Shown here piece after piece: positions 21,673-41,809 of a DNA stretch of 43,384 bases. The position numbers and the translations under genes are program-made. The notes under the pieces were generated by a model that did no database searches, had not been told where the DNA came from, and saw only the letters and a list, made by a program, of their open reading frames with translations. Positions within the stretch are counted from its first letter, which is position 1. Each line of letters begins with the position of its first letter. The stretch is from Actinomycetes bacterium (GTDB lineage: Bacteria; Actinomycetota; Actinomycetes; Streptosporangiales; Streptosporangiaceae), in assembly GCA_021792405.1 (NCBI GenBank), contig JAJYUU010000018.1:1-43384 (forward strand), in the 5' to 3' direction.

Positions 21673-22515
21673 TCACTGCGGCCAGGCGACCCGCTGCGGA
21701 CCGGTGTAGATGTTCATCGACTCACCGCGCACGAATCCCGCCAGCGTCAGGCCCGCGTCGTCGGCGAGCTCGGCAGCCAGCGATGACGGGGCGGAGACGG
21801 CCGCCAGCACCGGGATGCCGGCCAGCACGGCCTTCTGCACCAGCTCGAACGAGGCCCGCCCGCTCACCATCAGCACCGTGCGCCGCAACGGCAGCAGCCC
21901 GGCTTGCAGTGCCCAGCCAACGATCTTGTCGACAGCGTTGTGCCTGCCGACGTCCTCCCGTACCGCCAGCAACTCGCCCGCGCTGCTGAAGAGCCCGGCC
22001 GCGTGCAGCCCGCCGGTCCGGTCGAACACCCGCTGCGCGCCGCGGAGCGCGCCGGGCAGCCCCGCCAGCACGGCCGCGGGCACCTGGAACTGATCCTCAT
22101 CGAGCCTGTAACGGCCGGGAACGCGCAGTTCGGCGATGCTGGATTTGCCACAGACACCGCAGGCGCTGCTGGTCAGGAAGTTGCGGCGCGGGCCGGACGC
22201 CAGCGGAGGCCGCAGCTCCACGTCGGCAATGTTGCCGATCGCGTCGCCGGCCTCGTGGTCGTGGCCGCACTGGCTGCCGTCGCAGATCCTGATCGACCGG
22301 ATGTCCCCAGCCGAGCTGATAACGCCCTCGCTGAACAGGAAGCCGGCTGCCAGCTCGATGTCGTCGCCTGGCGTCCGCATGGTGAGGCTGACCGCCTGGC
22401 CGGCGATCCTGATGCCGAGCGGCTCCTCGGCGGCCAGCAGGTCAGCGCGCTCGCTCGTGCCGGGCTCGCCGATGCAGATCCGGGTTACCCGCCTGCGCGC
22501 CGTCCGTCCGGCCAC
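21673..22515 (-). CDS. fdhD: Formate dehydrogenase sulfurtransferase FdhD
   Basis: This encodes 280 residues from GTG 22515, preceded by GGAGGA. FdhD carries sulfur from cysteine desulfurase to the molybdenum cofactor and is needed for active formate dehydrogenase. The conserved CGVCGK (Cys-x-x-Cys sulfur shuttle), FDRTGGLHAAGLF, VREDVGRHNAVDKIVGWAL and SGRASFELVQKA segments are all present. The open frame continues further upstream, but length and ribosome binding site favour 22515. It diverges from the formate dehydrogenase operon across 92 bases. Confidence 0.95.
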   Translation of the reverse strand: MAGRTARRRVTRICIGEPGTSERADLLAAEEPLGIRIAGQAVSLTMRTPGDDIELAAGFLFSEGVISSAGDIRSIRICDGSQCGHDHEAGDAIGNIADVELRPPLASGPRRNFLTSSACGVCGKSSIAELRVPGRYRLDEDQFQVPAAVLAGLPGALRGAQRVFDRTGGLHAAGLFSSAGELLAVREDVGRHNAVDKIVGWALQAGLLPLRRTVLMVSGRASFELVQKAVLAGIPVLAAVSAPSSLAAELADDAGLTLAGFVRGESMNIYTGPQRVAWPQ

Positions 22516-22607
22516 GGCTCCTCCGACCTGGTCCGCGTGCTTCTGATCCCAGCCAATACGCCCCCCCCGGCTTGCCCTTTGCAGGCTACGTCCGTTTGGA
22601 TAGGACA

Positions 22608-25600
22608 GTGCCCCAACTACCCGGCTGGATCGCGAACTGGCCTGCCTACCGGCAGCTGACCGGACGTGACCGGCTGGGCCGGGGTGAGGCGGTCCGGTCA
22701 CCGCATACCGAGGCGGCGGCTCCGCGCACGCAGGCCGCCGATCGCGTCGTGAGCTCCATCTGCCCGTACTGCGCGGTGGGCTGCGGCCAGCGTGTCTACG
22801 TGGCCAGCGCAGGCGGCCGGGATGCGGTGACCCAGATCGAGGGCGACCCGGACTCGCCGGTGTCGCGCGGCCGCCTGTGCCCGAAGGGCGCCGCGAGCAA
22901 GCAACTGGTCACCCAGCCCGGCCGGCTGACGAAGGTGGCCTACCGGCGGCCCTACGGCACCGCCTGGGAGCAGCTGAGCCTGGACCAGGCGATGGACATG
23001 ATCGCCGACCGGGTGATCGCCACCAGGAGGGACACCTGGCAGGAGCACCATGGCGGCCAGCGGGTAGCCAGGACTCTCGGCATCGCCAGCCTTGGCGGCG
23101 CGACCCTGGACAATGAGGAGAACTACCTCATCAAGAAGCTGTGGACCGCGCTCGGCGCGATCCAGATCGAGAACCAGGCGCGGATATGACACTCCGCCAC
23201 CGTTCCCGGTCTGGGGACTAGCTTCGGCCGCGGCGGCGCCACCACATTCCCGCGCGACCTCGTCAACTCGGACTGCATCGTCATCTGCGGTTCGAACATG
23301 GCTGAGTGCCATCCGGTAGCGTTCCAGTGGGTCGTGGAGGCCAAGGCCCGCGGCGCCACGGTGATCCACGTCGACCCGCGGTTCACCCGCACCAGTGCGC
23401 TGGCGGACCTGCACGTGCCCACCAGGGCCGGCGGCGACATCGTGTTCCTCGGCGCGCTGATCAATCACGTGCTGTCCGGCGGGCACGAGTTCACCGAGTA
23501 CGTCCGCGCCTACACCAACGCCGCCGACATCTTGCCTGCGGAGTTCACCGACGCCGAGGACGGCGGCGGGCTGTTCTCCGGCTACGACCCGGACACCAGG
23601 ACTTACGACAACTCCAGCTGGCAGCCGACCGGGGAGCGGGACGAGACGCTGCAGCACCCGCGGTGCGTCTTTCAGGTGCTCAAGCGGCATTTCTCCCGGT
23701 ACACGCCGGATCTGGTGGAACAGGTCTGCGGGATCGGGCCAGCGGAGTTCGGCAGGGTCGCCGATGCCGTCGTCGCGGCCAGCGGGCGGGAGAAGACGAC
23801 CGCCTGGGTGTATGCGGTGGGCTGGACCCAGCACAGCACCGGGGTACAGCACATCAGGACCGCGTCCATCCTGCAGATGCTGCTCGGCAACATGGGCAGG
23901 CCCGGCGGCGGCATCCTGGCGCTCCGCGGGCACGCGAACATCCAGGGCGCGACCGATGTGCCGACCCTGTTCCACTTGCTCGGCGGCTACCTGCCGATGC
24001 CAGGGCCGGGCGAGGACATGGCCACCTACCTGGCCCGGATCCCGGACGGCGGTTTCTGGGGCAACAAGCGCAAGTACCTGGTCAGCATGCTGAAGGCCTG
24101 GTTCGGGGACGCGGCGACGGCAGACAACGACTTCTGCTTCGGCTACCTGCCCAGGATCAGCGGCGATCACGGCACCTACCGCACGACGCTGGACATGATC
24201 GACGGCAAGGTCAAGGGGTTCTTCCTGCTCGGCGAGAACCCGGCCGTCGGGTCGGCGGGCGGCCGGCTGCAGCGGCTGGCGCTGGCCAACCTGGACTGGC
24301 TGGTGGTCAAGGACCTGACCATGATCGAGAGCGCCTCGTTCTGGCAGGACTCACCAGAAGTGGCCGGCGGCGAGCTGGTCACCGAGCGGATCGGGACCGA
24401 GGTATTTCTGCTGCCGGCGGCCGCGCACGTGGAGAAGGACGGCAGCTTCACCAACACCCAGCGGCTGCTGCAATGGCACGCTAAGGCGCTGGACCCGCCC
24501 GGCGACGCGCGCAGCGACCTGGCGTTCATGTACGACCTCGGCAACCGGATCCGCGCCCGGCTGGCTGGCTCGGATGATCCGGCCGACCGGCCGGTGCTGG
24601 ACCTGACCTGGGACTACCCGGAAGAGCCTGGCGGCGACCCGTCGGCCGAGGCGGTGCTGGCCGAGCTGAACGGCTACGCGGCCGACGGGTCGCCGTTGGC
24701 CTCGTCCGCGCAGCTTGCCGATGATGGCTCGACCAGGTGCGGCAGCTGGATCCACGCGGGCTGCTTCGCCGGCGGAGTGAACCAGACCGCCCGCCGCACG
24801 CCGTGGCAGGAGCAGGACCACGTGGCGCTGGAGTGGGGCTGGGCGTGGCCGGCCAACCGGCGCATCTTGTACAACCGGGCATCGGCCGACCCGGACGGCA
24901 GGCCGTGGAGCGAGGCGAAGGCCTACGTCTGGTGGGACGAGCAGGCGCGCGAGTGGACCGGCCTGGACGTGCCGGACTTTGAGAAGGCCAAGCCGCCGGA
25001 CTACCTGCCGCCGCCCGGCGCCACCGGCCCGGCGGCGCTGAGCGGCCGCGATCCGTTCATCATGCAGGCAGACGGCAAGGCGGCGATCTTCGTGGCGCGC
25101 GGCCTGCAGGACGGGCCGCTGCCCGCGCACTTCGAGGCCGCCGAGTCGCCGCTGCGTAACCGGGTGTATCGGCAGGACGCCAGCCCGGTGTCGATCCAGT
25201 ACGCCGGCCGGCGGCAAACCCGCGACCAGGTAGCCGGGCATGACGCCACCTACCCGTTCGTGGTGACGACCTACCGGCTGACCGAGCACCATACCGCCGG
25301 CGGGATGAGCCGGACTCTGTCCAGGCTCGCCGAGCTGCAGCCCGAGCTGTTCTGCGAGGTGTCGCCTGAGCTGGCGGCGGAGCGCGGGCTGGAGAACGGC
25401 GGCTGGGCGACCATCATCACCGCGCGCGCGGCGATCGAGGCCAGGGTGCTGGTGACGCGAAGGCTGCGGCCGGTGCGGATACCCGGCGAGGGCGTCATCC
25501 ACCAGGTCGGGCTGCCGTACCACTTCGGCAGCGAGGGCCTGGTGACCGGTGACTCGGTCAACGACCTGCTGCCGCTGGTACTCGACCCGAACGTATTCAT

Positions 25601-25733
25601 CCAGGAGAGCAAGGTGGCTACCTGCGACATCAGGCCCGGGCGGCGGCCGACGGGAGCTGCCAGGATGCAGCTGGTGAACTCCTACCGGCACCGGGCGGGG
25701 CTGGCTGACGAAGAACCGCAGCCGGGCTCATGA
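22608..25733 (+). CDS. fdhA: Selenocysteine-containing formate dehydrogenase alpha subunit (TGA at 23187-23189 read as Sec)
   Basis: The gene is open from GTG 22608 to 25733 only if the TGA at 23187-23189 is decoded. It gives 1,041 residues, near the length of E. coli FdnG. The [4Fe-4S] site is ICPYCAVGC (Cys52, 55, 59) with Cys91 in RGRLCPKG. The active site reads ENQARI-Sec194-HSATVPGLGTSFGRG, as in Sec formate dehydrogenases. The remainder is the bis-MGD molybdopterin fold, ending in a cofactor-binding cap (VATCDIRPGR). It oxidises formate to CO2. No Tat signal is seen, so it is probably cytoplasmic. A TTG at 22572 is an alternative start. Its stop overlaps the beta subunit ATG. Confidence 0.93.
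23187..23218 (+). promoter_or_regulatory. Selenocysteine codon and bacterial SECIS hairpin
   Basis: Counting the T of TGA as +1, the hairpin arms are GTTCCC (+16 to +21) and GGGGAC (+27 to +32), with loop GGTCT (+22 to +26). The E. coli fdhF SECIS, as I recall it, has the same GGUCU loop with critical G23 and U24, and also U17 and U18. All four positions agree here. SelB binds such a loop while bringing Sec-tRNA. One stem pair is G-U. Confidence 0.85.
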
Positions 25734-26647
25734 CCAGCGACAGCATGCCGGTTGCCGATGGCGCACGCAACTCGCTGTACGGGCCGCTCGCTGACGTCGC
25801 TGCCGACGCCGGCTACCCCGGCAGTCATCCAGAGCGCGTCGGGTTCTTCACCGACACCAGCGTCTGCATCGGCTGCAAGGCATGCGAGGTGGCCTGCAAG
25901 GAGTGGAACGGGCTGCCCGACCCCGAGGCCGGCGCCCTGGCGCTAACCGGCATGTCTTATGACAACACCGGTGCGCTCGGCTCGAACAGCTGGCGTCATG
26001 TCGCGTTCATCGAGCAGACTGTGCCGTCCCGGGCCGATCCGGGCGAACCGGAGCTGATATCCGCGGTCGCCGACGGGGGCGCCACCCGCTGGCTGATGGC
26101 GTCCGACGTGTGCAAGCACTGCACGCATGCGGCTTGCCTCGATGTCTGCCCGACCGGCGCCCTGGTGCGCACCGAGTTCGGCACCGTTATCGTCCAGCCC
26201 GACGTGTGCAACGGCTGCGCCTACTGTGTGTCCGCTTGCCCGTTCGGCGTCATCGACCGGCGCGATGATGACGGGCGCGCATGGAAGTGCACGATGTGTT
26301 ACGACCGGCTGCGCGGCGGCCTGGAGCCAGCCTGCGCGAAGGCGTGCCCGACCGATTCCATCCAGTTCGGGCCGCTCGCCGAACTTCGCGAGATCGCCAG
26401 CGTCCGGCTCGCCGACGTGCAGGCGTCGGGGCATCCGGAGGCCCGCCTGTACGGGGCCGACCCGGACGACGGCATCGGCGGCGCCGGGGCGTTCTTCCTG
26501 CTGCTCGATGCGCCGGAGGTATACGGCCTGCCGCCGGACCCGGTGGTCACCACCAAGGACCTGCCGGCGATGTGGCGCTGGGCAGGTACGGCGGCCGCAG
26601 TCCTGGCGGCCGGCGTCGCGGTAGCGTTCGCGGGACGGCGCCGATGA
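25730..26647 (+). CDS. fdhB: Formate dehydrogenase beta (iron-sulfur) subunit
   Basis: This encodes 305 residues. It carries four [4Fe-4S] binding groups: CIGCKACEVAC, CKHCTHAACLDVC, CNGCAYCVSAC and CTMCYDRLRGG followed by ACAKAC. These are the ferredoxin-like clusters that pass electrons from the alpha subunit to the membrane. A hydrophobic C-terminal helix (AGTAAAVLAAGVAVAFAG) matches the membrane anchor of FdnH/FdoH-type subunits. The ATG overlaps the alpha stop by four bases, and its own stop overlaps the next start the same way, so the three subunits are translationally coupled. Confidence 0.93.
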   Translation: MTSDSMPVADGARNSLYGPLADVAADAGYPGSHPERVGFFTDTSVCIGCKACEVACKEWNGLPDPEAGALALTGMSYDNTGALGSNSWRHVAFIEQTVPSRADPGEPELISAVADGGATRWLMASDVCKHCTHAACLDVCPTGALVRTEFGTVIVQPDVCNGCAYCVSACPFGVIDRRDDDGRAWKCTMCYDRLRGGLEPACAKACPTDSIQFGPLAELREIASVRLADVQASGHPEARLYGADPDDGIGGAGAFFLLLDAPEVYGLPPDPVVTTKDLPAMWRWAGTAAAVLAAGVAVAFAGRRR

Positions 26648-27624
26648 CCGGGGGAGAGACCGTGACCCCGGCGAGAGACCGTGACAGGGGAGGCCGCGTG
26701 ACCGAACAGCCGCAGGTGCCGCCGGCCGACTTCCAGTCCTACTACGGCAGGCCCATCCTGAAGGTCAGCCGGTGGAAAGAGCCGCACCTGCCCGCATACC
26801 TGTTCCTCGGGGAGCTGTCCGGGGCGCTGGCGATGGTCGGTGCCGCCGCGGACGTGACCGGGCGCCCGTCGCTGGCCCGCGCCGCGCGGCTCGGGGCTGC
26901 CGCCGGGGCCTTCGCCGGCGGCGCCTTCCTGACGGCGGAGCTCGGCCGCCCGGAGCGCTTCCTCAACATGCTGCGGGTGGCGAAGCCGACCTCGCCGATG
27001 AGCATGGGCTCGTGGATTCTGGCGGCGCACTCCGGCCTGGTGTCGGCGAGCGCCGCGAGCGAGCTGACCGGCCGCCTGGCCAGCCTCGGCAGCCTGGCGG
27101 GAGCCGGCTCAGCCCTGACCGGGCCGCTGCTGGCGGCATATCCGGGCGTGCTGCTGGCGAACACCGCGGTGCCCGCCTGGCACGAGGCGTACCGGCAGCT
27201 GCCGCTGCTGTTCACCGGCGGCGCGATGACCGCGGCCGGTGCCGCCGGGCTGGCGGTCAGCGCGCTGAGCCGCGACCGGCCTGAGTTTGCCGCTGCCGGC
27301 CGGCTCGCGTTCATCGGCGCCGCGGTGGAAAGCCTCGCCGGGTACGGGCTGGAGACGATGCCGGGCCTGGCAGGCGAGCCGTACCGGACCGGGCCAGGCG
27401 GCCGGATGCTGACTGCCGCCAGGTACCTGACGATGGGCGGGGGAGTCGCGGCACTGGCCGGGCGGCGCAGCAGGACGGCTGCCGCCGTTTCGGCGGCGCT
27501 GCTCACCGGCGGCGGCTTGTGCGCCAAGTTCGCGGTCTTGCGAGCGGGGAAGGCCTCTGCTGCCGATCCGAAGTACGTGGTGGCCAGCCAGCGCGTTGCC
27601 CGGCCGGGCAGCCAGGGGGCGTGA
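26644..27624 (+). CDS. NrfD/PsrC-like membrane subunit
   Basis: This encodes 326 residues from the ATG overlapping the beta-subunit stop (ATGA). A polar start (about 1-50) holds FQSYYGRPILKVSRWKEP, then PAYLFLGELSGALAMVG begins the membrane part. Several further helices contain FLTAELGRPERFLNMLR, PMSMGSWILAAHSG and PAWHEAYRQLPLLFTGG, typical of NrfD/PsrC quinone-interacting subunits. In place of a cytochrome b gamma subunit (FdnI), it is expected to pass electrons to menaquinone. Helix topology was not computed. Confidence 0.88.
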   Translation: MTGGETVTPARDRDRGGRVTEQPQVPPADFQSYYGRPILKVSRWKEPHLPAYLFLGELSGALAMVGAAADVTGRPSLARAARLGAAAGAFAGGAFLTAELGRPERFLNMLRVAKPTSPMSMGSWILAAHSGLVSASAASELTGRLASLGSLAGAGSALTGPLLAAYPGVLLANTAVPAWHEAYRQLPLLFTGGAMTAAGAAGLAVSALSRDRPEFAAAGRLAFIGAAVESLAGYGLETMPGLAGEPYRTGPGGRMLTAARYLTMGGGVAALAGRRSRTAAAVSAALLTGGGLCAKFAVLRAGKASAADPKYVVASQRVARPGSQGA

Positions 27625-29084: not shown

Positions 29085-30080
29085 CTAACGCAGAACCAGC
29101 GCGTGCGGTCCGGGCTCGATCAGCTCGCCGATCACCGGCGCGCCGGGAATCTCGCCGGCCAGCAGCAGCCCGCCGGACGTCTGGGCGTCGGCAAGCAGCA
29201 GCAGTGCCTCCTCGTTAAGCTGGCCGAAGTCGCTGTGCGGAGCCACCCAGGCCAGGTTCCGGCGGCTGCCGCCTGGCACGTAGCCGGCCCGGATGGCGTC
29301 GGCAGCGCCCTCGATCAGCGGCACCGCGGCACTGTCCACGACGGCGGTGACGCCGCTCGCCCTGGCCAGCTTGAACAGGTGACCAAGCAGCCCGAAGCCA
29401 GTGACGTCGGTGGCACACCGGATCCCGGCGGTCAGCGCCGCGCGGCTGGCCGCATCGTTCAGCGTGGTCATCACCTCGATCGCGGCCGGAAATAGCTCGC
29501 CGGTGGCCTTGTGCCGCGAGTTCAGCGTGCCACTGCCGATTGGCTTGGTCAGCGAGAGCGGCAGGCCTGGCCGCCCGGCGTCGATGCGCAGCAGGCGGGC
29601 CGGGTCGGCCAGCCCGGTGACCGCCATGCCGTACTTCGGCTCTGGGTCGTCAATGCTGTGGCCGCCCGCCACGTGGCAGCCCGCCGCGCTCGCCACGGCA
29701 AGGCCGCCGCTCAGGACCTCGGCCGCCAGCTCTGGGCCCAGCACGTCCCGCGGCCAGCCAAGCAAGTTGAGCGCGACCAGCGGCTCGCCGCCGACCGCGT
29801 AGACATCCGAGAGCGCGTTCGCAGCCGCGATCCGGCCGAATGTGTAAGCGTCATCGACCACCGGGGTAAAGAAATCAGCGGTGGCGACTATCGCGCGGCC
29901 TCCGGCGATCCGGACGACGGCGGCGTCATCGCCGTGCTCCACGCCGATGAGCACGTCGGCGGGCTTGCGTGCCGGGATGAGCTTGGCTACCGCCTCCTCC
30001 AGCTCGCCGGGCGGGATCTTGCACGCGCAGCCACCGCCGCGGGCGTACTGGGTGAGCCGGACCGGAACCAGGATCGTCAT
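29085..30080 (-). CDS. selD: Selenide, water dikinase (selenophosphate synthase)
   Basis: This encodes 331 residues. SelD makes selenophosphate from selenide and ATP, the selenium donor for tRNA-Sec. The catalytic start reads LTQYARGGGCACKIPP, with Cys18 in the reactive position and Lys21. VGVEHGDDAAV-like text (LIGVEHGDDAAVVRI), ATADFFTPVVDDAYTFGRIAA, GGHSIDDPEPKYG and TDVTGFGLLGHL are all present. Here the active residue is Cys, not Sec. ATG 30080 has no clear ribosome binding site, but TACAGT (30088-30093, minus strand) lies seven bases upstream, consistent with a leaderless transcript. Confidence 0.96.
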   Translation of the reverse strand: MTILVPVRLTQYARGGGCACKIPPGELEEAVAKLIPARKPADVLIGVEHGDDAAVVRIAGGRAIVATADFFTPVVDDAYTFGRIAAANALSDVYAVGGEPLVALNLLGWPRDVLGPELAAEVLSGGLAVASAAGCHVAGGHSIDDPEPKYGMAVTGLADPARLLRIDAGRPGLPLSLTKPIGSGTLNSRHKATGELFPAAIEVMTTLNDAASRAALTAGIRCATDVTGFGLLGHLFKLARASGVTAVVDSAAVPLIEGAADAIRAGYVPGGSRRNLAWVAPHSDFGQLNEEALLLLADAQTSGGLLLAGEIPGAPVIGELIEPGPHALVLR

Positions 30081-30198
30081 GCCAGGAACTGTAATCGCTG
30101 GCTGGCTTGCGAACCGGCCGCGTGCATGGTGCCATGCGGTAGGGGTCCGCGCCGGGGCGATGCTAGCGGGCGGGCAACGACGAGCGATGGAGGCTGCA

Positions 30199-32068
<1,870 letters not shown>

Positions 32069-33000: not shown

Positions 33001-33561
33001 TCAGGCGGCAGTGTGGTCGCGTCCCAGCTTGATCAACCCGGGCACGGCCCGGCCCCCTGCAGCCTGCCATGCGGTGATCGCGGGCCTGATGACGACGGCG
33101 TCAGGCGTCCGCTGCCGTGGCGCGTCCGGCCACCAGCGGCTGACGATGCCGAGCATCCGGTCGTTGGCCGACAGCACGTCCAGGATCAGCGAGCCGACGC
33201 CACGCCCCGAGGCTCGGCCGATCAGCGTGCTGAGCAGCAGCGTGCCCAGGCCCTGCCGCTGCCACCAGTCGGCGACGACCAGCCCGATGTTGCTAGCCAG
33301 CTCGCCGGTAACCGGCGTGTCCGCGGCCATCCCGTGGGCGATCACAATCCCGTCGGGGTCAGTGATCAGCAGGATGTCAGCACCGGTCCGGCCGCACAGC
33401 ACGCGCATCAGCCCGGAGCTTGGCGGTGCAGCGGCGGCGAAGAAGCGCAGGTACTGCGAGCGCGGCGACAGGCCACAGATGAACTCGCGAATGCTGGCGG
33501 CGTCGTGCTCGCCGCCCGGCCGGATCAGGCCCACATCGGCATCCGACGGGGTTCGCTGCAT
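33001..33561 (-). CDS. GNAT family N-acetyltransferase
   Basis: This encodes 186 residues. The acetyl-CoA binding motif A is WWQRQGLGTLLLSTLIGRA (Q-R-x-G-L-G), preceded by the beta-4 strand ASNIGLVVAD. IRPGGEHDAASIREFICGLS begins the fold. The substrate is unknown; similarity to acyltransferase domains fused to acetyl-CoA synthetases suggests protein or small-amine targets. ATG 33561 lies six bases after a -10 match (GAAGCT, minus strand), with TTGACA 17 bases further up, so it is probably leaderless. It diverges from the HxlR-type gene. Confidence 0.88.
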   Translation of the reverse strand: MQRTPSDADVGLIRPGGEHDAASIREFICGLSPRSQYLRFFAAAAPPSSGLMRVLCGRTGADILLITDPDGIVIAHGMAADTPVTGELASNIGLVVADWWQRQGLGTLLLSTLIGRASGRGVGSLILDVLSANDRMLGIVSRWWPDAPRQRTPDAVVIRPAITAWQAAGGRAVPGLIKLGRDHTAA

Positions 33562-33567
33562 AGACCC

Positions 33568-33609
33568 AGCTTCTGCTGCCTTGCTAAGTCTGTCAAGTAG
33601 ACCTAGCCT
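33568..33609. promoter_or_regulatory. Divergent promoters with a shared inverted repeat (GNAT gene / hxlR-type gene)
   Basis: CTAAGTCT (33584-33591) and AGACCTAG (33599-33606) form an 8-bp inverted repeat with one mismatch and a 7-base gap. The plus promoter has -35 TTGCTA (33581-33586), a 17-base spacer and -10 TAGCCT (33604-33609). The minus promoter has -35 TTGACA (complement of 33591-33596), 17 bases, then GAAGCT (33568-33573). The repeat covers core elements of both. The HxlR-type protein is the obvious candidate regulator. Confidence 0.6.
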
Positions 33610-33615
33610 TCGGGT

Positions 33616-34092
33616 ATGGCAAAGTCCTGGGCGCTGGATTACGACCCGGCGACGTGCAACATCGCAGCTGCACTGGCGGTCGTGGGGGAGAAGTGGACCT
33701 TCCTGGTGCTGCGGGAGGCATTCAACGGCATCCGGAGGTTCGACGACATGCAGCGGCGGACCGGCGCGCCCAGGCAGGTGCTGAGCAGCCGGCTCTCGCG
33801 GCTGGTAGCCGAGGGCATCCTGGGCAAGGCGCCGTACCAGGAGCCCGGTCAGCGGCTGCGGCACGAATACCGGCTGACCGAGAAGGGGATCGAGCTGTTC
33901 CCTGTGATCGCGGCGCTGCTCGCCTGGGGGGACAAGCATGCTGCGGCGCCTGGCGGCCCGCCCGTAGAGCTGACCCACCGCGACTGCGGTGCGCCGGTAT
34001 TCCTGCAGCTCACCTGCTCTCAGGGTCATGTGCTCGGCTCGGCTCGGGACGTCACGCCGATACCCGGCGCGGGCGCCCGGCGAGTGGCGTGA
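33616..34092 (+). CDS. HxlR-family winged-helix transcriptional regulator
   Basis: This encodes 158 residues. The HxlR domain (about 15-105) contains ALAVVGEKWTFLVLREAF, GIRRFDDMQRRTGAPRQVLS, SRLSRLVAEGIL and EYRLTEKGIELFPVIAALL, typical of this MarR-like family. A cysteine (Cys14 in PATCNIAAAL) is in the position sensed by many HxlR proteins. The C-terminal 50 residues hold two more (HRDCGAPV, LTCSQGH). It is probably a dimeric repressor acting on its own divergent region. ATG 33616 follows its -10 box by six bases, so it may be leaderless. Confidence 0.9.
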   Translation: MAKSWALDYDPATCNIAAALAVVGEKWTFLVLREAFNGIRRFDDMQRRTGAPRQVLSSRLSRLVAEGILGKAPYQEPGQRLRHEYRLTEKGIELFPVIAALLAWGDKHAAAPGGPPVELTHRDCGAPVFLQLTCSQGHVLGSARDVTPIPGAGARRVA

Positions 34093-34149
34093 GCACCAGA
34101 GTGCCTGACTGACCGCGGACCGTCGGCGCGCCCGGTAGGGTCTGGTCCC

Positions 34150-34242
34150 GGAGGCGTCAGGGTGCCTGGTGGCCCCCATGGTCTTCAAAACCACTGGGCG
34201 GCGCTCCGCGCCGCCGGCGGGTTCGATTCCCGTCCGCCTCCG
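34150..34242 (+). tRNA. selC: Selenocysteine tRNA (anticodon TCA)
   Basis: The 93-base gene has acceptor arms GGAGGCG (34150-34156) and CGCCTCC (34235-34241), with discriminator G at 34242. The anticodon loop CTTCAAA (34183-34189) has TCA at 34185-34187. The long variable arm is an 8-bp stem, GGCGGCGC/GCGCCGCC, around TCC. The T arm holds GGTTCGATTCC. These features mark tRNA-Sec, charged with serine and converted by SelA. CTA follows, so CCA is not encoded. The eighth acceptor pair, one D-stem pair and the outer anticodon pair look mismatched by eye. A TAGGGT (34136-34141) upstream could be the -10. Confidence 0.92.
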
Positions 34243-34307
34243 CTAAGAGCCGCGCGAACTGCCGGGATCGCCACTGGCCGCGGGCATGACCGGGCGTCCC
34301 GTGGCGC

Positions 34308-35071: not shown

Positions 35072-36415
35072 ATGGTCGCGCTCGTGGACGTGCGCAGGCT
35101 GACCCCGCGTACCGATGCAGTGCTGGCAGATCCGCGACTGGCCGCGGCAGAGCACCGGCTCGGCCGCGCGATCGTGCTGTCTGCCGTGCGGCGCGCGCAG
35201 GATCGCGCCCGTGCCGGCGAGATCGAGCCAACAGCCGTGCCGGACGCTGCCGTGGAGAGCTTGCCGTCGCATGCCGCCACGCTGACGCCGGTGATCAACG
35301 CGACCGGCGTACTGCTGCACACCAATCTCGGCCGGGCACCGCTCTCGGCAGCTGCCAGAGACGCTCTTGAGGCTGCCGCCGGGAGCACTGACCTGGAATT
35401 CGACCTGGCCTCGGGGCAGCGCGGGCGGCGCGGTCGCGGCATGCTCAGCGCGCTGTCGGCCGCCGTGCCCGCCGCCGAGGCCGTCCATGTCGTCAACAAC
35501 AACGCCGCCGCGCTGGTGCTTGCCGCTACGGCACTGGCAGCCGGCCGCGAGGTGATCGTGAGCCGCGGTGAGCTGATCGAGATCGGTGACGGATTCCGGC
35601 TGCCCGACCTGCTGGAATCAACCGGGGCACGGATCCGCGAGGTTGGCACGACCAACCGGACGACTGCTGCCGACTACGCTGCGGCGATTGGCCCGCAGAC
35701 CGCCTTCGTGCTCAAGGTGCACCCGTCGAATTACCGGATCGAGGGATTCACTGCCAGCGCCTCCATCGCGGAGCTGGCCGCCCTGAGCGTACCCGTCATC
35801 GGCGACATCGGCTCGGGCCTGCTGACTCCGCACCCGCTGCTGCCGGCGGAGCCGGACGCCAGCAGCTGGCTCACGGCCGGGGCGGCGGTTGTCACCGCCA
35901 GCGGCGACAAGCTGCTCGGCGGCCCGCAGGCCGGCCTGCTGGCCGGCCGGGCTGACCTGATCGCCCGGCTTGCCCGGCACCCGCTGGCCAGGGCGCTACG
36001 GGTCGACAAGCTGACGGCCGCGGCCCTGGAGGCAACGCTGACCGGACCGCGGCCACCGGTGGCCGAGCAGCTCGCCGCGCCGCAGGCAGAGCTAGCCGCG
36101 CGGGCCGGGCGGATCGCCGATGTGCTCGCTGCCGTGGGCATCGATGCTCGCGCTCAGCACTGCGGGGCTGCGGTTGGCGGCGGCGGCGCACCCGGAGTGA
36201 GCCTGCCGAGCGCGGCCGTCAGCTTGCCGGCCGAGCTTGCGGTGGAGCTGCGGTCTGGCCTGGCGGTACGCCGGGGCGCGAGGCCGGCCGTCGTTGGCCG
36301 GATCGAGGACGGGCGGTTGCTGCTCGATCTGCGCGCGGTCAGCGAAGCTGACGACCAGCGCCTCACCGCGGCGGTACGGTCGGCGGCCGCAACGGGCCCG
36401 GCTGAGGCGGGCTGA
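35072..36415 (+). CDS. selA: L-seryl-tRNA(Sec) selenium transferase
   Basis: This encodes 447 residues. SelA is a cytoplasmic PLP enzyme that converts Ser-tRNA-Sec to Sec-tRNA-Sec using selenophosphate. Motifs seen are INATGVLLHTNLGRAPLS, VVNNNAAALVLA, SRGELIEIGDGFRLPDLL, EVGTTNRTTAADY and VLKVHPSNYRI; the PLP lysine is Lys280 in SGDKLLGGPQAG. Start ATG 35072 has only a weak AGG upstream; a GTG at 35084 is possible. It ends 26 bases before the SelB start, as in a selAB operon. Confidence 0.96.
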   Translation: MVALVDVRRLTPRTDAVLADPRLAAAEHRLGRAIVLSAVRRAQDRARAGEIEPTAVPDAAVESLPSHAATLTPVINATGVLLHTNLGRAPLSAAARDALEAAAGSTDLEFDLASGQRGRRGRGMLSALSAAVPAAEAVHVVNNNAAALVLAATALAAGREVIVSRGELIEIGDGFRLPDLLESTGARIREVGTTNRTTAADYAAAIGPQTAFVLKVHPSNYRIEGFTASASIAELAALSVPVIGDIGSGLLTPHPLLPAEPDASSWLTAGAAVVTASGDKLLGGPQAGLLAGRADLIARLARHPLARALRVDKLTAAALEATLTGPRPPVAEQLAAPQAELAARAGRIADVLAAVGIDARAQHCGAAVGGGGAPGVSLPSAAVSLPAELAVELRSGLAVRRGARPAVVGRIEDGRLLLDLRAVSEADDQRLTAAVRSAAATGPAEAG

Positions 36416-36441
36416 TCGCGATGGAATCCAGGGCCCGCGCC

Positions 36442-38550
36442 ATGCATGTCGTCGTCACTGCCGGACACGTCGACCACGGAAAGTCTGCGCTGATCCGCGC
36501 CCTCACCGGAATGGAGCCGGATCGGTGGGCCGAAGAACAGCGCCGCGGCATGACGATCGACCTCGGTTTCGGCTGGCTCACGCTGCCCTCCGGCGATCGG
36601 CTGGCGTTCGTCGACGTGCCCGGCCACGAGCGGTTCGTGACCAACATGCTGGCTGGCGCAGGACCAGTACCGGCCGTGATGTTCGTGGTGGCGGCCGACG
36701 AGGGCTGGATGCCGCAGTCCGCTGAGCATCTGGCCGTGGTGGCCGCGCTCGGCATCAGGCGCGGCGTGCTAGTCGTCACCAAGAGTGATCTGGCCGACCC
36801 GGTGCCTGCGATCAGCCAGGCAACCGCTCAGATCGCGCAGACGGCCCTCGGCGAGCTGCCGGCGATCGCGGTCAGCTCGGTAACCGGGGCGGGTCTTGCC
36901 GAGCTGGCCGAGGCGCTGGACGAGCTGTGCAGCAGCCTGCCCGAACCCGATCCCGGCGCACCGGTGCGGATCTGGATCGACCGCGTCTTCAGCATGACCG
37001 GCAGCGGCACGGTCGTGACCGGCACCCTTCCGGCCGGCTCCGTGCACCGGGGTGACGAGCTGGTAATCACGCCGTCGATGCGCCCAGTACGAGTGCGGGA
37101 CCTTCAGTCACTCGGCGAGACGGCACAAGCCGCCGCGGGAGTGGCGCGCGTGGCGCTCAACTTGCGCGGCATCGGGCGTGACTCGCTGCATCGCGGCATG
37201 GCGCTCGTGCAGGCCGGCCGCTGGACCCTTACCGACCTGATCGACGTCCGGCTGACCGTGCAGCCGGGCAGCCCCGTGCCGCCGGGCAGCCCCGCCGAGC
37301 CTGGACAGCTGGCGCGATCGGTAGCCGTGCACGTGGGCTCTGCCCGCGTCGTTGCCCGGGTGCGGCCGCTTGGCGCGGGACTGGCCAGGCTTAGCCTGGC
37401 GGACCCGTTGCCACTGCACGTCGGCGACCAGATCCTGCTGCGCGACCCTGGCAGCCGCCGTACCGGCTCGTTTCCGGCGGTGGCCGGCGCGGTCGTCCTC
37501 GATGTCGCACCGCCGTCGCTCGGTCGCCGTGGCGCCGCCGCCGCGGCGGCGCGGATGCTGTCGGGCTGGCCCGACCGGCCGGGAGCCGCCGAGCTGCTCG
37601 CCCGGCACGGGATCATTCGGGCCAGCACGCTGCTTGCCATGGGCGTGTCGGATCACCCGGTGCCAGTGGCGGGCGAGTGGCTCGCCGATCCCGGCCACTG
37701 GCGTGCACTTGGTCACCACCTCGGCGAAGTGCTCGCGAGCCATGCGGCCGCCGAGCCGCTGGCTGCGGGAATGCCGGTTGACGCGGCCAGGGCAGCGCTG
37801 GAACTGCCCGACCGAAAGCTGGTGCTTGCGCTTGCCAAGCCGCCGTTCCGGGTCACTGGCGGAGCGCTGCACATAGGACGGCCGACCGGCCAGGATGTCG
37901 GTCCGGAACTCCCCGAGGCGGTTCGTGCGGCGGTGCGGGTGCTTCGCGCAGACCTGGCCGCGGCCCCATTCCTGTCACCGGACGCAGACCGGCTGCGCAA
38001 GCTCGGGCTCGACGCGCGCAGCATCGCCGCCGCAGTGCGGGCCGGGGAGCTCATGCGCGTCAGCGACCAGGTCGTGCTCGCTCCTGGCGCTGACGTGCTC
38101 GCCAGCGAACTGCTGGCCCGGCTGCCGCAGCCATTCACGGCGGCGCAGGCCAGGCAGGCGCTCTCTAGCACCAGGCGCACCGCCATCCCGCTGCTGGAGT
38201 ACCTGGACTCGGCAGGAATCACCCAGCGGCTGCCAGACGACCGGCGAGTGCTGGTCAGCAGGCCCGCGCACGCCGGAGATCCGGCCGTGAGCGGTGCGGC
38301 TGCCAGCGCGATCGCCGCCAGCCTGACCCGCGCGGCTGGCGCCGGCGCCGGCCGTACCGGCATGACCACGGCTGACCTGACGATCAGCGGCGGGCACGGC
38401 ACCAGCAGGCCCGCAGCCGGGGTGGCGGCCAGCCGGGCAGATGCCAGCACGACCGGTGCCAGCACGACCGGTGCCAGCACGACCGGTGCCAGCACGACCG
38501 GTGCCAGCACGACCGGTGCCAGCACGACCGGTGCCGCGTCCGGCCTCTGA
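36442..38550 (+). CDS. selB: Selenocysteine-specific elongation factor SelB
   Basis: This encodes 702 residues from ATG 36442, giving the usual MHVVVTAGHVDHGKS start; ATG 36421 would add seven residues. GTPase motifs are AGHVDHGKS (7-15), GMTIDLGFGW, DVPGHERFV and TKSDLADP. Domains 2 and 3 resemble EF-Tu. The C-terminal third holds winged-helix repeats (PFRVTGGALHIG, RKLGLDARSI, QPFTAAQARQAL, RRTAIPLLEYLDS) that bind SECIS RNA. The final 90 bases are a 15-bp tandem repeat giving an ASTTG tail, beyond the normal end of the protein. SelB delivers Sec-tRNA at the TGA in the formate dehydrogenase gene. Confidence 0.96.
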   Translation: MHVVVTAGHVDHGKSALIRALTGMEPDRWAEEQRRGMTIDLGFGWLTLPSGDRLAFVDVPGHERFVTNMLAGAGPVPAVMFVVAADEGWMPQSAEHLAVVAALGIRRGVLVVTKSDLADPVPAISQATAQIAQTALGELPAIAVSSVTGAGLAELAEALDELCSSLPEPDPGAPVRIWIDRVFSMTGSGTVVTGTLPAGSVHRGDELVITPSMRPVRVRDLQSLGETAQAAAGVARVALNLRGIGRDSLHRGMALVQAGRWTLTDLIDVRLTVQPGSPVPPGSPAEPGQLARSVAVHVGSARVVARVRPLGAGLARLSLADPLPLHVGDQILLRDPGSRRTGSFPAVAGAVVLDVAPPSLGRRGAAAAAARMLSGWPDRPGAAELLARHGIIRASTLLAMGVSDHPVPVAGEWLADPGHWRALGHHLGEVLASHAAAEPLAAGMPVDAARAALELPDRKLVLALAKPPFRVTGGALHIGRPTGQDVGPELPEAVRAAVRVLRADLAAAPFLSPDADRLRKLGLDARSIAAAVRAGELMRVSDQVVLAPGADVLASELLARLPQPFTAAQARQALSSTRRTAIPLLEYLDSAGITQRLPDDRRVLVSRPAHAGDPAVSGAAASAIAASLTRAAGAGAGRTGMTTADLTISGGHGTSRPAAGVAASRADASTTGASTTGASTTGASTTGASTTGASTTGAASGL
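38443..38532. repeat. Six perfect 15-bp units at the selB 3' end
   Basis: The unit GCCAGCACGACCGGT repeats six times without any mismatch at 38443-38532. It encodes ASTTG six times, followed by AASGL and the stop. Six identical copies indicate recent expansion by slippage and probable length variation among strains. Confidence 0.97.
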
Positions 38551-40125: not shown

Positions 40126-41115
40126 ATGCTGATCGACTCGTACGGGCGGACAGCCACCGACCTCCGGGTGTCGCTCACCGATCGGTGCAATCTGCGATGC
40201 TCGTACTGCATGCCCGCCGAGGGCCTGGACTGGCTGCCCAGGCCGGAACTGCTGACCGATGACGAACTAGTCCGGCTGATCGCCCTAGCGGTGACCCGGC
40301 TGGGCATCACCGCGGTCCGGTTCACCGGGGGCGAGCCGCTGCTGCGCCGCGGCCTGCCGGTCGTCATCGAGCACGTGGCTGCCCTGCGGCCCCGGCCAGA
40401 GATCTCGCTGACTACGAACGGCATCGGACTCGAGCGGCTTGCCGGGCCGCTGCGAGCGGCCGGGCTGGATCGCGTCAACGTCTCGCTCGATACGCTGTCG
40501 GCCGAGGTGTTCGTGCAGCTCACCCGCCGTGACCGGCTCGCTGACGTGCTGGCGGGACTGGCCGGGGCGGCCGAGACCGGACTCGCGCCGGTAAAGGTCA
40601 ACGCGGTGCTGATGCGCGGTGTCAACGACAGCGAAGCGCCGGCGTTGCTGCGGTTCTGCCTGGCCAGGGGTTACCAGCTGAGGTTCATCGAGCAGATGCC
40701 GCTGGATGCCCAGCACGGCTGGCGTCGCGAGCAGATGGTGACAGCCGATGAGATCCTGACCGCGTTGCGTGCGGAGTTCTGCCTGACACCGGCCGACCCG
40801 GCGGAGCGCGGTTCCGCTCCGGCGGAGAAGTTCCTGGTGGACGGCGGGCCTGAGACAGTCGGCGTGATCGGATCGGTGACCCGCCCGTTCTGCGGAGCCT
40901 GCGACCGGGTCCGGCTGACGGCCGACGGGCAGCTGAGAAACTGCCTGTTCGCCAGGGACGAGAGCGACCTGCGGACCCCGTTGCGGGCAGGCGCGTCCGA
41001 TGACGAGCTCGCGGCTCGGTGGGAGCGCTGCGTCGCGGCTAAACTGCCAGGCCACGGCATCAATGAGATCGGCTTCCTGCAGCCTGCGAGGCCGATGTCC
41101 GCTATTGGCGGCTGA
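40126..41115 (+). CDS. moaA: GTP 3',8-cyclase (molybdenum cofactor synthesis)
   Basis: This encodes 329 residues from ATG 40126, with AAGGAGG at 40112-40118. MoaA is a radical SAM enzyme that rearranges GTP in the first step of molybdopterin synthesis. The radical SAM cluster is CNLRCSYC (Cys21, 25, 28), followed by VRFTGGEPLLRRG. The second, substrate-side cluster is CGACDRVRLTADGQLRNC near the C-terminus. The chain ends in Gly-Gly (SAIGG), the conserved tail required in MoaA. It heads a moaA-mobA-DUF6457 cluster that could feed the formate dehydrogenase. Confidence 0.97.
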   Translation: MLIDSYGRTATDLRVSLTDRCNLRCSYCMPAEGLDWLPRPELLTDDELVRLIALAVTRLGITAVRFTGGEPLLRRGLPVVIEHVAALRPRPEISLTTNGIGLERLAGPLRAAGLDRVNVSLDTLSAEVFVQLTRRDRLADVLAGLAGAAETGLAPVKVNAVLMRGVNDSEAPALLRFCLARGYQLRFIEQMPLDAQHGWRREQMVTADEILTALRAEFCLTPADPAERGSAPAEKFLVDGGPETVGVIGSVTRPFCGACDRVRLTADGQLRNCLFARDESDLRTPLRAGASDDELAARWERCVAAKLPGHGINEIGFLQPARPMSAIGG

Positions 41116-41137
41116 CCGGCAGCGGCCGCCCGTGGGT

Positions 41138-41809
41138 ATGCCCGAGTTCGACACGGTAATCCTGGCCGGCGGCCGGGCTGCCCGGATGGGCGGAGCGGAT
41201 AAGCCCGCCCTGATAGTGGGCGCTGAGCCGATGGTGGTCTCGGTGGCGCGCGCTGCGGTGACGGCCGGAGCCAGCCGGCTGATCGTCGTCGGGCCGCGGC
41301 GCCCTGGACCCGTGCTCGACGCGCTGCAGGGGGTGGCCGCCAGCGGGCCGGCCGAGCTTCGGTTCGCCCGTGAGGAGCCGCCGGGCTCCGGGCCAGTTGC
41401 GGCGCTGCGCTGCGGCCTGGCCGAAGTTGCCGCGCCGTGGCTGACGCTGCTCGCCGCTGATCTGCCGTTCCTGCGTGACAGGCAGCTCGGCGAACTGCTC
41501 GGCCGGGCGATGGCCGCTGGCCGTCCGGGCGCGGTGCTAGCCGACGCCGTGGCCAGGCCGCAATGGCTGGCGGGCGCCTGGCAGGCTGGTGCGCTGCGGG
41601 CGGCGCTGCGTGACTATGCAGGCAGTTCGCTGCACGGTCTGCTGGCACCGCTGGAACCAGTCTCGGTGCAGGCGGCCGGGCAGGCGGCCGGGCAGGCGGC
41701 CGGGCAGGCGGCCGGGCTCATGTCATGGCTGGATTGCGACACTCCGGACGACCTGGCCGCGGCTCGGCAGTCGTGGCAGCTCCGTGACACCGGGAATGAG
41801 CCGCGCTGA
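41138..41809 (+). CDS. mobA: Molybdenum cofactor guanylyltransferase-like protein
   Basis: This encodes 223 residues. The nucleotide-binding start is VILAGGRAARMGGADKPAL (about 8-26), the LAGGxxxRMGGxDK motif of MobA, followed by LLAADLPFLRDRQLGELL. MobA attaches GMP to molybdopterin to make the dinucleotide form used by bis-MGD enzymes such as formate dehydrogenase. A GTG six bases upstream (41132) is an alternative start. A repeat of QAAG, four times, interrupts the C-terminal part. It follows moaA by 22 bases. Confidence 0.9.
   Translation: MPEFDTVILAGGRAARMGGADKPALIVGAEPMVVSVARAAVTAGASRLIVVGPRRPGPVLDALQGVAASGPAELRFAREEPPGSGPVAALRCGLAEVAAPWLTLLAADLPFLRDRQLGELLGRAMAAGRPGAVLADAVARPQWLAGAWQAGALRAALRDYAGSSLHGLLAPLEPVSVQAAGQAAGQAAGQAAGLMSWLDCDTPDDLAAARQSWQLRDTGNEPR
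41669..41716. repeat. Four perfect 12-bp units in mobA
   Basis: The unit CAGGCGGCCGGG is repeated four times at 41669-41716 and encodes QAAG four times, ahead of the final LMSWLDCDTP segment. Confidence 0.97.

Follow-up and report, generated by a model that had tools for sequence, protein, structure and literature searches.

A probable selenocysteine codon and its covarying SECIS hairpin in an actinomycete formate dehydrogenase gene

The window, a 43,384-nucleotide stretch of DNA from an actinomycete, carries a formate dehydrogenase gene (fdhA) with an in-frame TGA at 23187–23189, and insertion of selenocysteine (Sec) at this codon is very strongly supported by sequence comparison with homologous genes. 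We are highly confident that the product would be a membrane-type (FDH-N-like) Mo/Sec formate dehydrogenase, whose Sec is supplied by the sel machinery and directed by a hairpin at +16 to +32, counted from the U of the UGA. The features are collected in Table 1.

The fdhA reading frame

The TGA stands in the context QARI-TGA-HSATVPGLGTS and the frame continues past it for 847 codons to a stop at 25731–25733, in agreement with the QARI-TGA-HS context and the more than 800 further codons described in an earlier, sequence-only reading of this DNA. Counted from a GTG start at 22608 the UGA is residue 194, as that reading had it; from the other start candidate, a TTG at 22572, it is residue 206. 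The protein matches the model formate_DH_Act (NF041513) over its whole length with 1759 bits (cut-off 1400) and that of the FDH-N alpha subunit (TIGR01553) with 910 bits (cut-off 814), in addition to the three Pfam domains listed in Table 1, and by score the family is the FDH-N type. The expectation that automatic annotation would split the gene or call it a pseudogene holds for a simple ORF caller, which does split fdhA, but not for the NCBIfam model NF041513, which spans the TGA.

Table 1. Features of the window, with the evidence for each
Feature	Position	Strand	Evidence
fdhD, sulfurtransferase for formate dehydrogenase maturation	21673..22701	-	PF02634 236.6 bits
fdhA, formate dehydrogenase alpha subunit, probable selenoprotein	22608..25733	+	NF041513, TIGR01553, PF04879, PF00384, PF01568
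UGA codon, probably read as selenocysteine	23187..23189	+	alignment of 110 homologous sites; codon matches tRNA-Sec anticodon
SECIS hairpin, G16-C32 to C21-G27, loop GGUCU	23202..23218	+	covariation, slid and shuffled controls, RNAalifold, lost in Cys homologues
fdhB, iron-sulfur beta subunit	25730..26647	+	TIGR01582 169.5 bits (under its cut-off), Fer4_11
probable fdhC, NrfD-type membrane subunit	26281..27624	+	PF03916 NrfD 35.5 bits
selD, selenophosphate synthetase, Cys form (GGGCACKI)	29085..30296	-	TIGR00476 370 bits, cut-off 125; family match 29154-30059
selC, tRNA-Sec, anticodon UCA	34150..34243	+	ARAGORN; RF01852 73.9 bits, cut-off 47
selA, selenocysteine synthase	35072..36415	+	TIGR00474 437.6 bits, cut-off 267.9
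selB, Sec-specific elongation factor	36421..38550	+	TIGR00475 286.5 bits, cut-off 242.25; SelB-wing_3
moaA	39898..41115	+	
MobA-like gene	41000..41809	+	

A covarying hairpin follows the UGA

The region was compared at 110 homologous sites from other genomes, composed of the closest 80 from a species-genome scan and 30 from a phylum sample; with this selection, proportions within the set are not population estimates, and as the homologues are related by descent the counts exceed the number of independent changes. In the window itself the sequence GGTCT occupies +22 to +26 (23208–23212), and the bases U17, U18, G23 and U24 are those given in the sequence-only reading. The strands flanking the loop form a continuous helix of six pairs, G16-C32, U17-A31, 18-30, C19-G29, C20-G28 and C21-G27. 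Among 35 distinct Sec hairpins the helix is paired in 99.5% of cells, versus 91.4% when shuffled and at most 63.3% when slid, and 15 cells are changed on both sides, versus 3.2 in the shuffles. Pair 18-30 occurs as CG, UA, GC, UG and GU, and pair 21-27 as CG and GC. RNAalifold adds an R22-U26 pair, leaving a GUY triloop in which G23 and U24 are invariant (93/93 Sec sites).

RNA folding had been proposed as a check, and the thermodynamic fold of the single sequence proved no better than that of shuffles (z about 0.4 for 40 nt and −1.3 for 21 nt). This fold alone is not significant; the case for the hairpin rests on comparative evidence, and the covariance comparison with actinobacterial homologues, suggested alongside the folding, gave a clear outcome: the hairpin covaries in the Sec genes and is destroyed in the Cys genes. 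Rfam SECIS families score under threshold here, with SECIS_3 reaching 15.9 vs 63 bits at the correct place. The published bacterial SECIS (bSECIS) consensus comprises a 3–9 nt apical loop, an upper stem of 4–16 bp, a G in the first two loop positions and a distance of 16–37 nt from the UGA (PMC13188914); the present hairpin has a stem of 6–7 bp, a loop of 3–5 nt with G23, and lies 18–19 nt from the UGA. The 5.39 Mb genome contains the 11-mer CCCRGTYTGGG 12 times, against 9 occurrences of the backwards control, and of these 12 copies the one described here is alone in having a stop codon at −18.

Comparison with the E. coli fdhF and fdnG elements

The sequence-only reading placed the hairpin in the register of the E. 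coli fdhF element, the sequence of which is confirmed in 5,368 of 5,426 E. coli genomes. In fdhF-type elements U17 is bulged from the 5' strand, and positions 15–19 are paired with 28–31 (PMC8659212); folding of the fdhF sequence likewise gave a bulged U17. The distance of the loop from the UGA is indeed equal to that in fdhF, and in this one sequence bases 16–18 and 22–26 are identical, so that U17, the GGUCU loop, G23 and U24 are held in common. However, it is unlikely that the element has the full fdhF architecture, bulged U17 included. The fdhF-register pairs 15-31, 16-30 and 21-26 are broken in the majority of sequences; with the fdhF pairing imposed on the actinobacterial set, 51.4% of cells are paired and the covariation score is no higher than that of shuffles. 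Moreover, U17 faces A31 or G31, and is predicted to be paired, in 92/93 Sec sites.

The pairing register is shifted from that of fdhF and corresponds to that of E. coli fdnG (FDH-N; 38.6% protein identity), with which the upper-stem pairs 18-30, 19-29, 20-28, 21-27 and 22-26 and the GUC of the loop are shared. The two differ in the lower part of the stem. In the fold of fdnG itself U17 is bulged because C31 pairs with G16, whereas the actinobacterial sequences have A or G at position 31 and pair G16 with C32; U17 is accordingly predicted to pair, and the helix is continuous.

Conservation of the loop in an actinomycete, with U17, U18, G23 and U24 agreeing with E. coli, had been taken to suggest a SelB with the same rules for RNA contact. 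The invariance of G23 and U24 is consistent with that proposal, but the U17 bulge is absent, and position 18, which is C, U or G, is one half of a pair that covaries with position 30. U18 is unconserved in the actinobacterial family, and judged by this alignment it matches fdhF by chance in this one sequence; support for shared contact rules stops at G23 and U24. We found no open-access paper describing SelB–SECIS contacts at the level of residues. The SelB encoded in the window has the C-terminal winged-helix domain (SelB-wing_3), and when aligned with 21 actinobacterial SelB sequences and that of E. coli it conserves an E. coli-like motif, (S/T)RR..(I/V)PLLE.LD..G.T.

G23, U24 and pairing of the stem are apparently required of a bacterial SECIS, which may do without the bulged U17; the absence of the E. 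coli bulge from this hairpin is in itself a mildly interesting detail. It is conceivable, though we hold it only tentatively and lean somewhat against it, that the SECIS of actinobacterial formate dehydrogenases is a lineage-specific form without bulged U17, in which SelB reads a continuous helix and a G23-U24 loop. If true, one contact held essential in E. coli would be dispensable here.

The loop is conserved as RNA

The loop could in principle be kept only through conservation of the protein sequence V-P-G-L and not as an RNA signal, and the first two positions of the Val, Gly/Ser and Leu codons do partly explain U17, G23 and U26; V, G and L also persist in the Cys homologues. We nevertheless regard this account as very improbable. 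Position 24, third and silent in the Gly/Ser codon, is U at 93/93 Sec sites and at 0/18 Cys sites, and GGT accounts for only some 10% of the Gly codons used by the genes of the window, where the joint usage of CCC-GGT-CTG for Pro-Gly-Leu is approximately 0.013. The silent bases 18 and 30 covary, and Pro CCC/CCG switches together with Leu CTG/CTC. In the Cys homologues pair 19-29 is formed in 0/18 and pair 18-30 in 5/18. Because these homologues lose both the pairing and U24, and because GGT is rare, conservation of the loop is not a mere by-product of the protein. By its covariation, and its loss with Cys, the hairpin is a genuine SECIS element.

The codon follows the tRNA-Sec anticodon

The codon at the 110 homologous sites is TGA in 81, TAG in 11 and Cys in 18, and with the window's own the TGA total is 82. 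An unrelated residue in the homologues, named beforehand as an outcome that would count against Sec, occurs in none of them. The closest relative (L009, a different MAG with 82% identity) shares both the TGA and the loop. The TAG sites belong to Geodermatophilus, Blastococcus, Modestobacter and a MAG labelled Frankiales (homologues L022, L030, L040, L045, L051, L052, L056, L062, L076, L082 and L085, with L051 the one labelled Frankiales). The tRNA-Sec anticodon is CUA in 11/11 TAG genomes and UCA in the 6/6 TGA genomes tested. This tracking of the anticodon by the codon across genomes argues strongly for reading of the stop codon by tRNA-Sec, and Sec decoding of the TGA, as first proposed, is borne out by the homologous sites, the sel genes and the codon–anticodon match. 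ARAGORN mislabels the CUA tRNA-Sec as tRNA-Pyl; as RF01852 these tRNAs score 64–67 bits.

Ten genomes with a Cys copy were searched for tRNA-Sec; a UCA tRNA-Sec was found in two, and it was absent from the other eight, which gave tRNA-Ser cross-matches only. One of the two, Actinoallomurus soli, has two TGA copies as well, and the loop is kept in both of these and missing from the Cys copy. The Sec homologues (UGA and UAG) together with the Cys homologues form a clean natural experiment on the requirements of bacterial SECIS elements.

There is next to no chance that fdhA is dead, with the TGA a genuine stop or a sequencing or assembly artefact: a simple ORF list does divide fdhA at the TGA, and the assembly is a draft of 314 contigs, but a further 81 homologous sites have TGA too, the only replacements being TAG or Cys codons, the remaining frame is intact and above the family cut-off, and the sel genes are present.

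Selenocysteine genes of the window and related systems

The genes of the bacterial Sec-decoding trait, selA, selB, selC and selD, all lie inside the window. By analogy with E. coli, SelA and SelD would make Sec on the UCA tRNA-Sec, and SelB would carry the Sec-tRNA, bind the hairpin behind the UGA through its loop and deliver the Sec-tRNA to the ribosome, where release factor 2 would otherwise act. What SelB recognises would be the continuous six-pair helix, with a possible R22-U26 pair, and the loop bearing the invariant G23 and U24. The activity of the enzyme as a formate dehydrogenase is likewise predicted from knowledge of E. coli.

An fdhA gene with a UGA and a SECIS is an ordinary case of a well-known arrangement whose family is modelled by NCBIfam, and the present analysis puts right how one more selenoprotein gene is annotated. 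Such an enzyme is not surprising in an actinomycete: 68/396 genomes of the phylum sample have an over-cut-off match, most of the matches listed having one TGA, and a case has been published. In Actinomycetospora chiangmaiensis a Sec formate dehydrogenase with a bSECIS and sel genes is described, together with selenium-dependent formate removal and detection of FdhA (PMC7176365), and 12 selenoprotein families had been counted in Actinobacteria by 2006 (PMC1794560). The present gene resembles FdhA1 of that species, and the actinobacterial family NF041513, in its over-cut-off match, the Sec in FdhA, the bSECIS after the codon and the proximity of fdh to selA and selB. It differs in nothing essential; here the fdh genes, tRNA-Sec, selA, selB, selD, moaA and the MobA-like gene lie within about 20 kb. 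In the Geodermatophilaceae/Blastococcus group decoding of UAG for Sec has been published (PMC5330540, citing Mukai et al. 2016). That system has a homologous formate dehydrogenase and hairpin and uses UAG with a CUA tRNA-Sec, whereas the standard UGA and UCA are used here.

With a covariance model of the hairpin, this site is the only one recovered in the genome (next best E 6.9); no further selenoprotein with the same type of element was found, the model covering this type of SECIS alone. SelD was checked as a candidate second selenoprotein and rejected, as it has Cys.

The true start of fdhC is downstream of that in Table 1, behind fdhB. With moaA and the MobA-like gene placed after the sel genes, genes for the molybdenum cofactor and for Sec, which serve one enzyme, are clustered. 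In its longest form, an antisense ORF (33001–34194, minus strand) with a weak match to GNAT acetyltransferases reaches into the tRNA-Sec gene with its 5' end, and its true start is probably further in. SelB has 709 residues here, versus 563–618 in the 21 actinobacterial relatives, and ends in an unusual tail of about 100 residues. A perfect 15-base tandem repeat at the 3' end of selB (38442–38535; 6.3 copies, 100% match) encodes GASTT repeats within this tail.
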